Under the pieces are notes generated by a model. That model saw only the letters and a program-made list of their open reading frames with translations, made no database searches and had not been told where the DNA came from. A stretch of 47,827 nt of DNA from Candidatus Cloacimonadota bacterium (lineage in GTDB: Bacteria; Cloacimonadota; Cloacimonadia; Cloacimonadales; Cloacimonadaceae). The translations under genes were made by a program, and so were the position numbers. The DNA lies in assembly GCA_029565535.1 (NCBI GenBank), contig JAKQNZ010000071.1, forward strand, positions 1 through 47,827. Direction: 5' to 3'. Of this stretch, positions 20,606-46,595 are shown in pieces. Each line of letters opens with the position of its first letter. Within the stretch, counting starts at the first letter, position 1.

Positions 20606-22784
20606 GCCGATAATTGCCCTCGCAGGCAATCCCAATGTAGGTAAAACCTCCCTTTTCAATGCCTTAACCGGTGCAAGGCAAACCGTGGGCAATTGGCCTG
20701 GGGTAACCGTTGAACACAAATCCGGGATTTTCAGCCTTCATAACCGCCATTTTGAAGTGATCGACCTGCCAGGTATTTATTCTCTTTCAGGAGGGACACC
20801 TGACGAATTGGTGGCCAGAGACTATATTCTGAATGAAAAGCCCGATCTGATAATAAACATCGCCGATGCGTCAAACCTGGAACGGAATCTGTATCTCACA
20901 GTCCAACTGATGGAACTGGGTGCGCCAATGCTGCTTTGCCTGTCCATGACCGATATCGCCAGGGACAACGGCATTGAGATAGACGCAGAGCACCTTGGCT
21001 CACATCTGGGCTTTCCGGTTCTTCCTTTGGTTTTGAACCGGCGCTTGGAAAGCGAACAGCTCTTTGAGCTCATCGGCAACCTGGTAGATAAACCTCAGCT
21101 TCCAGCCTCGATCCATTATGATGAGGTGGTGGAGAACCATCTGGAAAAAATCTGGCAGCGCCTTGTAAAAACCAAAGGCTTGGGATGGGAAGCCAGCGGA
21201 CTGGCAGATTCGGATAAAGCCGGGCATAGCTATAATCTACTAATCCAAAGCCGCTGGCAGGCGATTAAACTAATCGAAGGCGATCCCTATCTTTCCGGAC
21301 AATTGCAGCCTTCCGACAAACAGCAGGTAGAAAAAGAAATAGCCGCCATCGCCAAACATCGTGGCCAGGAACCTGCTGCCGTGATCGCCGATGACCGGTT
21401 TGGCTTCATCAGAGGCCTGGTAAAAGATGTAGTGAAGCGGAAAAAACCAGGCAACTGGACTTTTTCCGATGCCGTGGATAAGATTGTTTTGAACGGTATA
21501 GCAGGACTTCCGATCTTTTTTGCCGTGATGTATCTGGTGTTTCTTTTTGCCGTAAAAGCCAGCGAGCCCTTCATCGGTATCATCGATGCGGTTCTGAACT
21601 GGCTCTTGGTAGATCAGCTTGGTTTGGGACTGGCCAGCCTGGGTTTGCCGCATTGGCTGAGATTTATGCTCAGCGATGCCTTGGGCGGAGGGATTGCCAC
21701 GATTGGCACCTTCATACCCCCAATATTCTTCATTTACATAAGCTTGTCGGTCCTGGAGGATTCCGGCTACATGGCCAGGGCCGCTTTTATCGCCGACAAG
21801 TTCATGCGGCGCATCGGACTACCCGGAAAGGCTTTCATCCCTTTGCTGGTGGGCTTTGGTTGCACAGTCCCGGCCATTATGGCAACCAGGACTTTGGAAA
21901 GCCCCAGGGACAGAGTTTTTGCATCTGTGCTAACCCCCTTCGTTTCTTGCGGGGCAAAGCTACCTGTTTATACCTTCCTGGGCATGCTGTTTTTTCCCAG
22001 AAAAGCTGATTTGCTAATTTTTGGACTCTATTTCTTTGGCATCGTGATGGCAATGCTAACGGGATTCATGCTGAAGAAAACGATTTTTCGCAGCGATCCG
22101 GGCAATTTTGTGATGGAACTGCCGCCCTATCACAAACCCACTTTGAACGGAATCATGCTGCATACCTGGCACCGGCTGAAAGATTTTGTTCTGCGCGCTG
22201 GCAAGACCATCCTTCTGGTAATTATCCTGATCAATGTCCTGCAGATTATCAAGCTGCCCTGGGGGACAAACGGGGAGAATACACCCGTTCTGGAGCTTGG
22301 CGGGAAGCTGATTACCCCGGTTTTACAGCCAATGGGTGTGGACAAGGATAATTGGCCGGCTTCAGTTGCGCTGATCAGCGGGCTTTTTGCCAAAGAGGCT
22401 ATCGTGGGAACTCTGCAGAGCTTATATGGGGCAGAGGAGACGAGGGGTCGAGGGGTCGAGGAGTCGAGGAGTCAGGACGGAGCTTATGATAACAGCTTAA
22501 AACAAGCCTTTGGCAGTTCTGCCTCAGCCATAGCTTTTCTGATTTTTGTGCTTTTGTATTCTCCTTGTGCAGCGGCGCTTACCATGCTGTTCAAAGAACA
22601 CGGGACAAAATGGATGCTCTTTGCCTTTGGCTATTTAACTGCTCTGGCCTGGATGGTTGCTACTCTGGTTTATCAAGTTCTGGCCTTCAGCGCAGGATCC
22701 TTGTATTGGATTGCCACGATTCTGGTCTTCTTCGTCCTGATATACATAAATCTTCGCAATATAGGGAGAAAACATGCTCTTTGA
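20595..22784 (+). CDS. feoB: Ferrous iron transport protein B
   Basis: A large inner-membrane Fe(II) importer with a cytoplasmic GTPase. From ATG 20595 (11-nt overlap with fur; a GTG at 20565 is the alternative) it has 729 residues. G1 GNPNVGKT (residues 11-18), GNWPGVTVEH switch region, G3 DLPGIYSL, and SMTDIARDNG as the G4 segment are present, then the helical NFeoB domain and two membrane gate repeats (SVLEDSGYMARAAFI, LVGFGCTVPAIMATRT, FVSCGAKLPVY, LFAKEAIVGTL, LLYSPCAAAL). Odd feature: four tandem 8-bp units at 22441-22472 encode a hydrophilic insert (about residues 614-630) after LQSLYG. One unit more or less would shift the frame and lose the last ~115 residues. Confidence 0.95.
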   Translation: MRDKPIIALAGNPNVGKTSLFNALTGARQTVGNWPGVTVEHKSGIFSLHNRHFEVIDLPGIYSLSGGTPDELVARDYILNEKPDLIINIADASNLERNLYLTVQLMELGAPMLLCLSMTDIARDNGIEIDAEHLGSHLGFPVLPLVLNRRLESEQLFELIGNLVDKPQLPASIHYDEVVENHLEKIWQRLVKTKGLGWEASGLADSDKAGHSYNLLIQSRWQAIKLIEGDPYLSGQLQPSDKQQVEKEIAAIAKHRGQEPAAVIADDRFGFIRGLVKDVVKRKKPGNWTFSDAVDKIVLNGIAGLPIFFAVMYLVFLFAVKASEPFIGIIDAVLNWLLVDQLGLGLASLGLPHWLRFMLSDALGGGIATIGTFIPPIFFIYISLSVLEDSGYMARAAFIADKFMRRIGLPGKAFIPLLVGFGCTVPAIMATRTLESPRDRVFASVLTPFVSCGAKLPVYTFLGMLFFPRKADLLIFGLYFFGIVMAMLTGFMLKKTIFRSDPGNFVMELPPYHKPTLNGIMLHTWHRLKDFVLRAGKTILLVIILINVLQIIKLPWGTNGENTPVLELGGKLITPVLQPMGVDKDNWPASVALISGLFAKEAIVGTLQSLYGAEETRGRGVEESRSQDGAYDNSLKQAFGSSASAIAFLIFVLLYSPCAAALTMLFKEHGTKWMLFAFGYLTALAWMVATLVYQVLAFSAGSLYWIATILVFFVLIYINLRNIGRKHAL
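22441..22472 (+). repeat. 8-bp tandem repeat (4 units) inside feoB
   Basis: Two copies of CGAGGGGT are followed by two of CGAGGAGT, continuing into CAGGAC. Since 8 is not a multiple of 3, copy-number change would switch the feoB frame. A related 8-bp periodicity (GGRGTCNN) occurs just after the operon at 23097-23128. Confidence 0.9.
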
Positions 22785-23292: not shown

Positions 23293-23369
23293 TGGTGGGT
23301 GATACTGGATTCGAACCAGTGACCTCTACGATGTGAACGTAGCGCTCTAACCAGCTGAGCTAATCACCC
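23293..23369 (-). tRNA. tRNA-Val (anticodon CAC)
   Basis: The complementary strand gives a complete cloverleaf: acceptor GGGTGAT/ATCACCC, D-arm TAGCTCAGCTGGTTAGAGC, anticodon arm CTACG-TTCACAT-CGTAG, T-arm CTGGTTCGAATCCAG, discriminator A and encoded CCA (23293-23295). It reads GUG valine codons. It is nearly identical to the tRNA-Val 22 bp upstream on the same transcript. Confidence 0.96.
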
Positions 23370-23391
23370 ACGAATTGTGGTTTTAATAAAG

Positions 23392-23468
<77 letters not shown>

Positions 23469-23528
23469 ACGGTAGGTCCATTTTTCCAGAGGGCTTTTTT
23501 TTGTCAAGCCCGGAGTGCGGATAATTGG

Positions 23529-23588
23529 GGAATGCCTGTTTGAGGAATGCCTGTTTGAGGAATGCCTATTTGAGGAATGCCTGTCTCT
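23529..23588 (+). repeat. 15-bp tandem repeat, 4 copies
   Basis: The unit GGAATGCCTGTTTGA occurs at 23529, 23544, 23559 (one change, CTATTTGA) and 23574 (last copy degenerate). It is non-coding, between the tRNA-Val promoter and a hairpin cluster. Confidence 0.9.
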
Positions 23589-44428: not shown

Positions 44429-45766
44429 TCAAGGAAAAAACTCCAACTTCAGGTAATCGAAAAGCCATGGCGTAAGCGCCAGAGGTAAATTCAACAAGCG
44501 AAATGCTTTCCCGTTTGGAGTAGTAAGCTTCTCCAGCTTGTATTCGCCATCATAGATTCGCACAGCAAAGTCAAGGGGACTGATGTCCATAAAGATAAAC
44601 AGCGATTTAAGCGTCCCTGTTTTGCCTGCTTTTACTTCCACAGGAATCAGCATTCCCTTCCAGGGCAATATAAAATCAAGCTCCGCGGTTGAGCTGCGGA
44701 CATCTCTTTTCCAGTAAGCAACATCGAATCCTACTTTCTGTTCCATAGCCATCAACATTTGTCCCACAAGCACTTCCATCGCTGCTCCCTTGTATATTGA
44801 ATTTAGGTTTTTGCTCCCGAAATAGTCTGCCATTACCTGTGCCTGGACGTTTAACAGGCCGATATCCAGGTAAAGCAGTTTCGGACGTTTTTTCTTTTGG
44901 GGAAATGAGGGAAGTTCCGTACTTGTATAGGGATATAGCAGCTTGAACATTCGGCAAAGCTCCAGGATTTCCAGAGCGTTTTTTACACTCAAGCTGCGAT
45001 AGCTCGAGCCCCCAAAACCTTCAAAACTTATTTGCTTACCAACTTCTAGGTAAGCTGTATTCATCACATGTCTTAGCACTTGTGCTTGATCCGGCGTTCT
45101 GGTGTATTTGATCATATCGTTGCGATAAGATTCCATGATGGCGTTCAGATTATCCCTTACCAGCACAATGTCATTCGTTTTCAACCAAAGCATCACCGCT
45201 TCCGGCAAGCCCCCGATCAGCGCGTATTTCAAAAATATGTCTCTGATCACGGGGTGTGAATAATTCGGAAAGGGAAACTCCAGCTGCAGAATATCCTTGC
45301 GGCCGGTTGCAAGCAGAAATTCATCAAAACTTAAGGGGTGCATCCAAAGAAATTGCACTCTTCCAACCGGAATCTCCAGCCTTTCCCGCTGTAGATACAG
45401 CTCCAAAAGCGATCCCGAAGCTATTACATAGAGATGGGGCATGTTTTCGTAAAAAAAACGCAGGCTCGCCATGGCCAGGCTGGATCCCTGGATTTCGTCG
45501 ATGAAGAGCAACACTCTGCCGATTGGTTTTTTGCCTTTTTTCAGTAGTATCAGATTGTAGAGATCGTTCACATTTTTATAGTTTTCAAATAGCTCTTTGT
45601 CTTCAGGAATTTCCATGTTCAGCTCGATATAGGTATCAAAATCCTGGCTGAACATTCGGACGGCAGTGGTTTTCCCAACCTGCCTGGCCCCCCGCAAAAT
45701 GAGCACTTTGCGATAATCCGATTCTGCCCAGTTTCTCAGGCTGTCCAGTATTGTTCTTTGCAACAT
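44429..45766 (-). CDS. AAA ATPase with DUF4143 (ATP-binding protein of the ArcOG/COG1373 type)
   Basis: The start is ATG 45766: GAGGT lies 5 nt upstream and a TTGACA/TATGTT promoter sits at 45795-45822; the frame runs on to 45937 through a repeat array, which lies upstream of that promoter. The protein has 445 residues: Walker A RGARQVGKTTAV (about residue 25), Walker B VLLFIDEIQGS, sensor VIASGSLLE, GRVQFLWMHPLSFDEFL, then the C-terminal DUF4143 region ending in a PD-(D/E)xK nuclease-like core (SSTAELDFILPWKGMLIPVEVKAG: E-x-D then VEVK). Such genes are frequent and mobile in anaerobes; their job is not known, with defence or toxin-type roles suggested. It stops 34 nt before the PhnE-like start. 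Confidence 0.92.
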   Translation of the reverse strand: MLQRTILDSLRNWAESDYRKVLILRGARQVGKTTAVRMFSQDFDTYIELNMEIPEDKELFENYKNVNDLYNLILLKKGKKPIGRVLLFIDEIQGSSLAMASLRFFYENMPHLYVIASGSLLELYLQRERLEIPVGRVQFLWMHPLSFDEFLLATGRKDILQLEFPFPNYSHPVIRDIFLKYALIGGLPEAVMLWLKTNDIVLVRDNLNAIMESYRNDMIKYTRTPDQAQVLRHVMNTAYLEVGKQISFEGFGGSSYRSLSVKNALEILELCRMFKLLYPYTSTELPSFPQKKKRPKLLYLDIGLLNVQAQVMADYFGSKNLNSIYKGAAMEVLVGQMLMAMEQKVGFDVAYWKRDVRSSTAELDFILPWKGMLIPVEVKAGKTGTLKSLFIFMDISPLDFAVRIYDGEYKLEKLTTPNGKAFRLLNLPLALTPWLFDYLKLEFFP

Positions 45767-45794
45767 GATTACCTCATATACCGTAATACATAAC

Positions 45795-45822
45795 AACATA
45801 ATCAGTTTTGGTTTTATGTCAA
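45795..45822 (-). promoter_or_regulatory. Promoter of the DUF4143 ATPase gene
   Basis: TTGACA (45822-45817), 16-bp spacer, TATGTT (45800-45795) on the minus strand, about 30 bp before the ATG at 45766. The -35 box is part of the repeat core of unit 1 of the 33-bp array. Confidence 0.55.
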
Positions 45823-45941
45823 GGTAATTATTAGCATGACAGTGTATAAATACAAGGCAATTTATCAGTGATTCAGGTGTATATTCAAGGTAATTTTTAC
45901 AGGGTTTATGTGTAATCTCAAGGCAATCTGCCTGCAAAGAT
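45810..45941 (-). repeat. 33-bp-period repeat array (4 units) upstream of the DUF4143 ATPase
   Basis: The core CAAGGYAAT on the plus strand starts at 45820, 45853, 45886 and 45919, exactly 33 bp apart. Flanks are partly conserved (TGTRTA before, TTTA or CAG after). Units 1 and 3 carry CAAGGT, units 2 and 4 CAAGGC, so a 66-bp higher-order repeat is likely. On the coding strand the core reads ATTRCCTTG and, in unit 1, supplies the -35 box. Confidence 0.85.
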
Positions 45942-46144
45942 GGTCAAAATCCACGGCTGTTTTCATGTTTTGAGAAACTGCGAGAAGATAGCATCACATG
46001 CTTCAAAACTGCTTTAAAAACGAGTTTGGGATTTTAGTCTGCATAGGCTTCAGTCAACCTGCACTAACTTTGGGAGTTAGTGTTGCTGTTTTAGAAAGAC
46101 ACTCCTGAAGTGTTTAGCGAAAACTAAACCTTTCAAGGGTTTCT

Positions 46145-46352
46145 CACAATAGGCGGTGGCTTCAGCCACCGTGTATTGCGCCCAAAGACAACATGTTAAC
46201 CCCATTCATAGGGTTTCTCACCATCTCCGGTTGCTTTAGCTGCCGGAAACATCTCCCGCCGGTTAAAACCGACGGAAATGGTGAGAAACTCAGGGAGCTA
46301 TATATCTGCAGCGCAATACCTTTACACGGTGGCTAAAGCCACCGCCTATTGT
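46145..46352. repeat. Nested inverted-repeat element (GGCTAAAGCC type)
   Basis: The outer arms CACAATAGGCGGTGGCTTCA... (46145-46181) and its near-perfect complement (46311-46352) enclose a second pair GTTTCTCACCAT/ATGGTGAGAAAC (46213-46224, 46278-46289) and two local hairpins (CCGG-TTGCTTTAGCTG-CCGG and CCGCCGGTT-AAAA-CCGACGG). GGTGGCTAAAGCCACC-like words resemble REP palindromes handled by RAYT transposases. The flanks (46020-46140) hold two more hairpins. I see no gene in 45942-46595. Confidence 0.85.
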
Positions 46353-46595
46353 GAAGTATCCTCTGATGAGGATTACCCAGAAAGCCACACTGCCGAAAGC
46401 ACTACCCAAGGGATAAATGGCCATAACTTCTGACTAGCAATCGTTTCTTGTTTATACGATTAGCGAAGCTACAAACATTCTGCGACCCAAACCAAAGGAA
46501 TATCAAAGCATTAAACTACAACCATGGCAAGAAAGAACTTGACGCAAAAACACTATCTGAATACCATGTAAGAAAAGAATTTCGAGGAGATATGT

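Follow-up and report, generated by a model that had tools for sequence, protein, structure and literature searches.

A predicted anti-phage ATPase gene of a Cloacimonadota bacterium is preceded by four direct repeats that lie 33 bp apart, and arrays of the same period precede homologous genes in many phyla. These arrays are real, exceed chance, and are general. The proposal that we develop here, which builds on sequence comparison, is that each array is probably a cognate operator, recognized by the very ATPase whose gene it precedes and most likely serving autorepression.

The array was found in a 47,827-nt stretch of DNA, hereafter the window, upstream of a gene for a DUF4143 ATPase. Four cores lie on the minus strand: ATTGCCTTG with its 5' end at 45927, ATTACCTTG at 45894, ATTGCCTTG again at 45861, and ATTACCTTG at 45828. 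Their spacings are exactly 33, 33, and 33 bp, just as the initial annotation of this DNA had described them. The complete units, of the form ATTRCCTTG..., are, in PWM register and on the same strand, AGATTGCCTTGAGATTACACATAA (unit 1, the farthest from the gene, 45906–45929), AAATTACCTTGAATATACACCTGA (unit 2, 45873–45896), AAATTGCCTTGTATTTATACACTG (unit 3, 45840–45863), and TAATTACCTTGACATAAAACCAAA (unit 4, gene-proximal, 45807–45830). The gene-proximal core starts 62 nt before the ATG. Positions 45700–46050 have a triple-periodicity score of 13, whereas the highest score among 500 Markov shuffles is 11, and the two-core pattern has no further copy anywhere in the 2.6-Mb genome to which the window belongs. 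The 66-bp alternation between the cores, an A/G alternation that had been reported along with the spacing, is real in the window (identity at lags 66 and 33 is 0.56 and 0.47, respectively) but is local to it: across 104 homologs, lag 33 beats lag 66.

The array overlaps the gene's own promoter. Specifically, a TTGACA -35 box (minus strand, 45822 to 45817) lies inside unit 4, which bears out the earlier statement that the unit nearest the gene forms this box. After a 16-nt spacer comes TATGTT (minus strand, 45795–45800), a -10-like box by consensus match only, and a GAGG at 45772–45775 (minus strand) is the probable ribosome-binding site, judging from its sequence. This promoter is sigma70-like, with 10 of 12 consensus bases matched across the -35 and -10 boxes; the -10 box is weak. 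Other loci display the same register. TTGACA is present in 20 of 102 loci, against 2.75 expected, and its position relative to the array is 5–8 in all 20 and exactly 8 mod 33 in 15. Similarly, a Bacteroidota-type TAnnTTTG box occurs in 34 loci (4.6 expected), where it falls either inside the last unit or beyond it. Thus, the array is situated at the promoter and reaches into it.

How general is this arrangement? Among 98 relatives, just one genome, G046, shares the exact two-core pattern, which there immediately precedes a homolog with 54% identity. Inspection of upstream regions by eye revealed an array before nearly every close homolog, identical in period but built on a different core. When 84,980 species genomes were scanned, another 80 loci emerged, which span Cloacimonadota, Bacteroidota, Desulfobacterota, Spirochaetota, Acidobacteriota, and other phyla. 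Of 104 bacterial homologs, mostly 37–59% identical, 97 have 30–34 or 63–67 as their best upstream repeat lag. The corresponding numbers are 1 of 90 for control regions and 3 of 162 for other genes at these loci. When autocorrelation is pooled over the upstream regions, maxima appear at lag 33 (0.424, which is 16 sd over background) and at lag 66; control regions have no peak at either lag. Ten Bacteroidota loci that were found later, and that stood outside model building, served as a hold-out, and nine of them carry 3–5 units at 32–33 bp. The suggested check, whether other DUF4143 genes are preceded by such an array, was therefore answered in the affirmative. The close homologs L211, L103, and L140 have no detectable array; theirs may have decayed, the start may be misplaced, or another motif may be used.

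The common unit spans 24 columns of the PWM, aatTTaCCCTgacTTTGt.aCAaa, and measures some 20–24 bp; its general form is TTRCCyTnnnTTTGTTACA, and that of the window's clade is ATTRCCTTG...TACAC. At least two PWM units are present in 93 of 104 loci versus 0 of 90 controls. The genes carry two to seven copies in front, all direct repeats in a single orientation and almost exactly 33 bases apart (among 212 PWM unit spacings, 171 measure 33 bp and 28 measure 32 bp). Upstream of the genes, unit density is 10.4 per kb, about 100 times the roughly 0.1 per kb elsewhere in the loci, and the downstream gene ends, where a transposon-like placement would put units, are not enriched for them.

More distant DUF4143 genes share the period. 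In 23 of 43, the best lag is 30–34 or 63–67 bp, versus 3 of 215 shuffles, and a second DUF4143 gene in the window's own genome has a 33-bp pair of its own. These remote genes have unrelated motifs, often in the form of palindromes; examples are TTTTGCGTTCGTAATCGCAAAA at locus L178 and ACACTTTTATGCGCATAAAAATGT on an Acinetobacter plasmid. Spacing is thus conserved and sequence clade-specific; because remote clades share the one and not the other, spacing looks like a property of protein architecture and sequence like a property of the clade. A 31%-identical relative on a Glaesserella parasuis plasmid (L143) has its own ~33-bp array and adjoins a type III restriction-modification system. At L137, L138, and L139, 28%-identical DUF4143 genes have nested palindromes, of the ATTTGTCGGT type or similar, beside TTGACA; these are putative operators of a different style.

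The window gene (minus strand, 44429–45766; start supported by alignment) encodes a 445-aa AAA+ ATPase with AAA_14 and DUF4143 domains, predicted to be an anti-phage ATPase with a nuclease-like end. Both Pfam curated cut-offs are exceeded (PF13173, 77.3 bits against 27; PF13635, 64.6 bits against 28.1), and residues 1–439 match profile positions 1–441 of 448 in the PADLOC PDC-S01 model PDLC04788 (E 5.2e-145). The window protein retains the Walker A and B residues and those of a PD-(D/E)xK core (D364, E377-x-K379); across 60 sequences, the G26–K32 P-loop, D90–E91, D364, E377, and K379 are invariant or at least 90% conserved. A search by sequence found no relative of solved structure. An AlphaFold2 model, built without covariation information, reached a pLDDT of 92.9. 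In it, residue 258 starts a helix (258–270) in a winged-helix arrangement, residue 259 sits at the N-end of this predicted recognition helix, and residues 356–358 immediately precede the PD-(D/E)xK strands.

Comparison of folds raises the possibility that the ATPase binds the array as an assembly, replication-origin, partition, or mobility site, much as Orc1/Cdc6 acts at origin boxes or as TnsC does, with regulation secondary. The best Foldseek matches are two archaeal ATPases followed by Orc1/Cdc6 on origin DNA (PDB 2qby), and TnsC is also listed. The gene, moreover, is accessory: it adjoins phnE and deoA, and twelve relatives have phnE with deoA and no ATPase gene in the flank examined. We nevertheless consider such a site unlikely, given that the units keep register with the promoter, that they occur on one side of the gene only, and that no replication, relaxase, or transposase partner is conserved.

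Alternatively, the array could be bound by a separate host regulator and not by the ATPase. Direct-repeat operators are known for small defense-island repressors such as RptR (PMC12255303), yet several observations make a separate regulator quite improbable here. First, paralogs within one genome carry different arrays. In G046, two adjacent homologs have different units, and in G034 and G041, which each harbor genes of two clades, every gene has the unit of its own clade. Second, the units follow the protein across phyla: unit distance tracks protein distance (Mantel r 0.39, 0 of 1000 permutations), and unit identity is 0.75 within a locus and 0.53 between loci. Third, no neighboring gene is conserved as a partner, the largest cluster of neighbors (9 of 93 loci) consisting of the gene's own paralogs.

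Fourth, residues of the ATPase covary with bases of the unit. In a set of 99 loci (Neff 75), evaluated against a phylogeny-preserving null in which arrays were swapped only among nearest relatives, the top pairs are residue 259 with column 19 and residue 357 with column 12. These are the only two pairs to pass, at family-wise frequencies of 6/300 and 5/300, respectively. Residues 258, 259, 226, 230, 248, and 249 point to columns 16–20, and residues 356–358 point to columns 8–12. Residues 258 and 259 belong to the predicted recognition helix (codons 258–270; minus strand, 44957–44995), and 356–358 form the loop before the PD-(D/E)xK core (minus strand, 44693–44701). The covariation is modest overall: the remaining pairs are coherent and individually non-significant, and some values shift between runs with the tie-breaking of the unit consensus. 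Among 49 independent sister pairs, no residue-base pair was singled out after correction, in a test too weak to decide. Because paralog arrays differ, a partner gene is lacking, and residues covary with unit bases, the ATPase is the likely reader; that it binds the array itself, raised at the outset as a possibility, we now regard as probable.

The units could also act as RNA. A nuclease-like, predicted anti-phage gene with a short tandem array right in front of it calls to mind type III toxin-antitoxin systems (toxIN), in which transcribed units bind the nuclease as a small-RNA antitoxin. ToxI repeats have a unit length similar to that of the array units. The promoter register speaks otherwise: with the promoter box inside the last unit, the transcript of the gene begins downstream of the array. 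In the window, no terminator was found on the gene strand between array and gene, the predicted folding of the array is not better than that of shuffled sequences (z +0.23), and an Rfam search of the region with E values up to 1 gave no match. The protein, a DNA-type AAA+ with a wHTH, is likewise unlike a ToxN-like RNase. On the strength of the promoter register and the missing RNA structure, an RNA antitoxin was rejected as very improbable. Finally, the alternative that the initial annotation had kept, a gene that starts upstream and whose 33-bp units encode an 11-residue repeat, is scarcely credible and was rejected for the family: 33 is a multiple of 3 and the window frame is open through the array (a 502-aa ORF, a matter of chance), but just 5 of 102 homologs keep the frame open across the array, stops fall between array and ATG in nearly all of them (the first in-frame stop typically 3–60 nt before the ATG in most close homologs), the 32-bp spacings break the frame, and the last unit either contains or precedes the -35 and Bacteroidota -7 boxes.

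We return to the operator that the ATPase would read, a reading put forward in the initial annotation and strengthened by the recurrence of the array upstream of DUF4143 homologs and the failure of the translated origin. The notion is that each unit is a binding site for the product of the gene it precedes, with the winged helix reading the 3' half of the unit and the loop of the PD-(D/E)xK-like domain reading the 5' half. Since 33 bp (sometimes 32) is about three helical turns, bound protomers would fall on one face of the DNA and be able to touch, and their oligomerization would provide cooperativity. Spacing would accordingly be kept while the unit sequence drifts. Because the gene-proximal unit overlaps the -35 box, an occupied array would exclude RNA polymerase, imposing negative autoregulation on a nuclease-ATPase that is probably costly. 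Binding is thus likely to repress the gene's transcription; at some loci, an activating role would entail a similar placement of sites. The repression might conceivably be released by a signal such as phage infection.

We speculate, tentatively, that the design extends to the whole DUF4143 superfamily (PDC-S01). Its members could be ATPase-nucleases, each locked to an evolving DNA address of its own with three-turn spacing; the nuclease-like domain would be the sequence reader, and the array would be both resting platform and sensor, from which the enzyme would be released or triggered when a phage alters the state of the DNA, the nucleotide, or competing sites. For PDC-S01, the array offers a practical entry point: sequence alone indicates which ligand to expect, which residues are candidates for setting specificity, and what could serve as a reporter. 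That the three-turn geometry is conserved while the recognition sequence drifts suggests a recognition code derivable from sequence, and with the array as a signature, distant members of the family could be found and dated. Our literature search found no arrays described upstream of such ATPases; subscription journals and preprints were mostly outside its coverage, and a prior description is possible. The passages on PDC-S01 that it found, among them those in PMC12988326, mention neither an upstream array nor autoregulation.

Other repeats deserve mention. In the window, hairpin-forming repeats of the GGCGGTGGCTTCAGCCACCG type, with one inverted pair, occupy 46136–46354, and short copies occur elsewhere in the genome (C14, C146). 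Two tandem tRNA-Val genes (anticodons cac and gac) lie in near-identical 99-bp units at 23293–23468; beside them, at 23525–23584, lies a near-perfect 15-bp tandem repeat, TTGAGGAATGCCTGT, in four copies. The 8-bp repeat GAGGAGTC is present in 5.6 copies at 22434–22477. At locus L014, another gene about 1047 nt upstream of the ATPase gene has a strong 32-bp upstream repeat (21/24 matches).

Several known systems resemble parts of this arrangement. Plasmid iterons are direct repeats with even phasing, and their reader, an autoregulating initiator, is encoded next to them. The window array shares the even phasing, the direct orientation, and the adjacent gene's product as putative reader; unlike iterons, it has no tie to replication genes and belongs to a chromosomal accessory gene. 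Archaeal Orc1/Cdc6 proteins combine AAA+ with a winged helix and have repeated DNA boxes near their own genes, which mark replication origins. The likeness in domains and boxes is evident, but Orc1/Cdc6 proteins have no PD-(D/E)xK domain, and nothing indicates origin function for the window array. The toxIN array shares the tandem placement upstream of a nuclease-like gene; it is transcribed RNA, whereas the window array precedes the promoter and lacks RNA structure. As for the protein, it matches the PDC-S01 model almost end to end, and the defense activity of PDC-S01 is itself predicted. According to PMC12988326, PDC-S01 is a phage defense candidate, an ATPase fused to PD-(D/E)xK (citing the Payne et al. 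2024 preprint), and ranks fourth in abundance among the predicted defense genes of prokaryotes (about 39,000 copies detected); most candidates of this kind await validation. In regulation, the closest described case is RptR, the repressor of a restriction-modification defense island (PMC12255303). There, too, a self-encoded regulator acts at a defense locus on direct repeats that overlap its own promoter. RptR, however, is a 9-kDa dimer whose repeats number three and are 9 bp long, whereas the putative regulator here is a 445-aa ATPase-nuclease whose repeats lie 33 bp apart.
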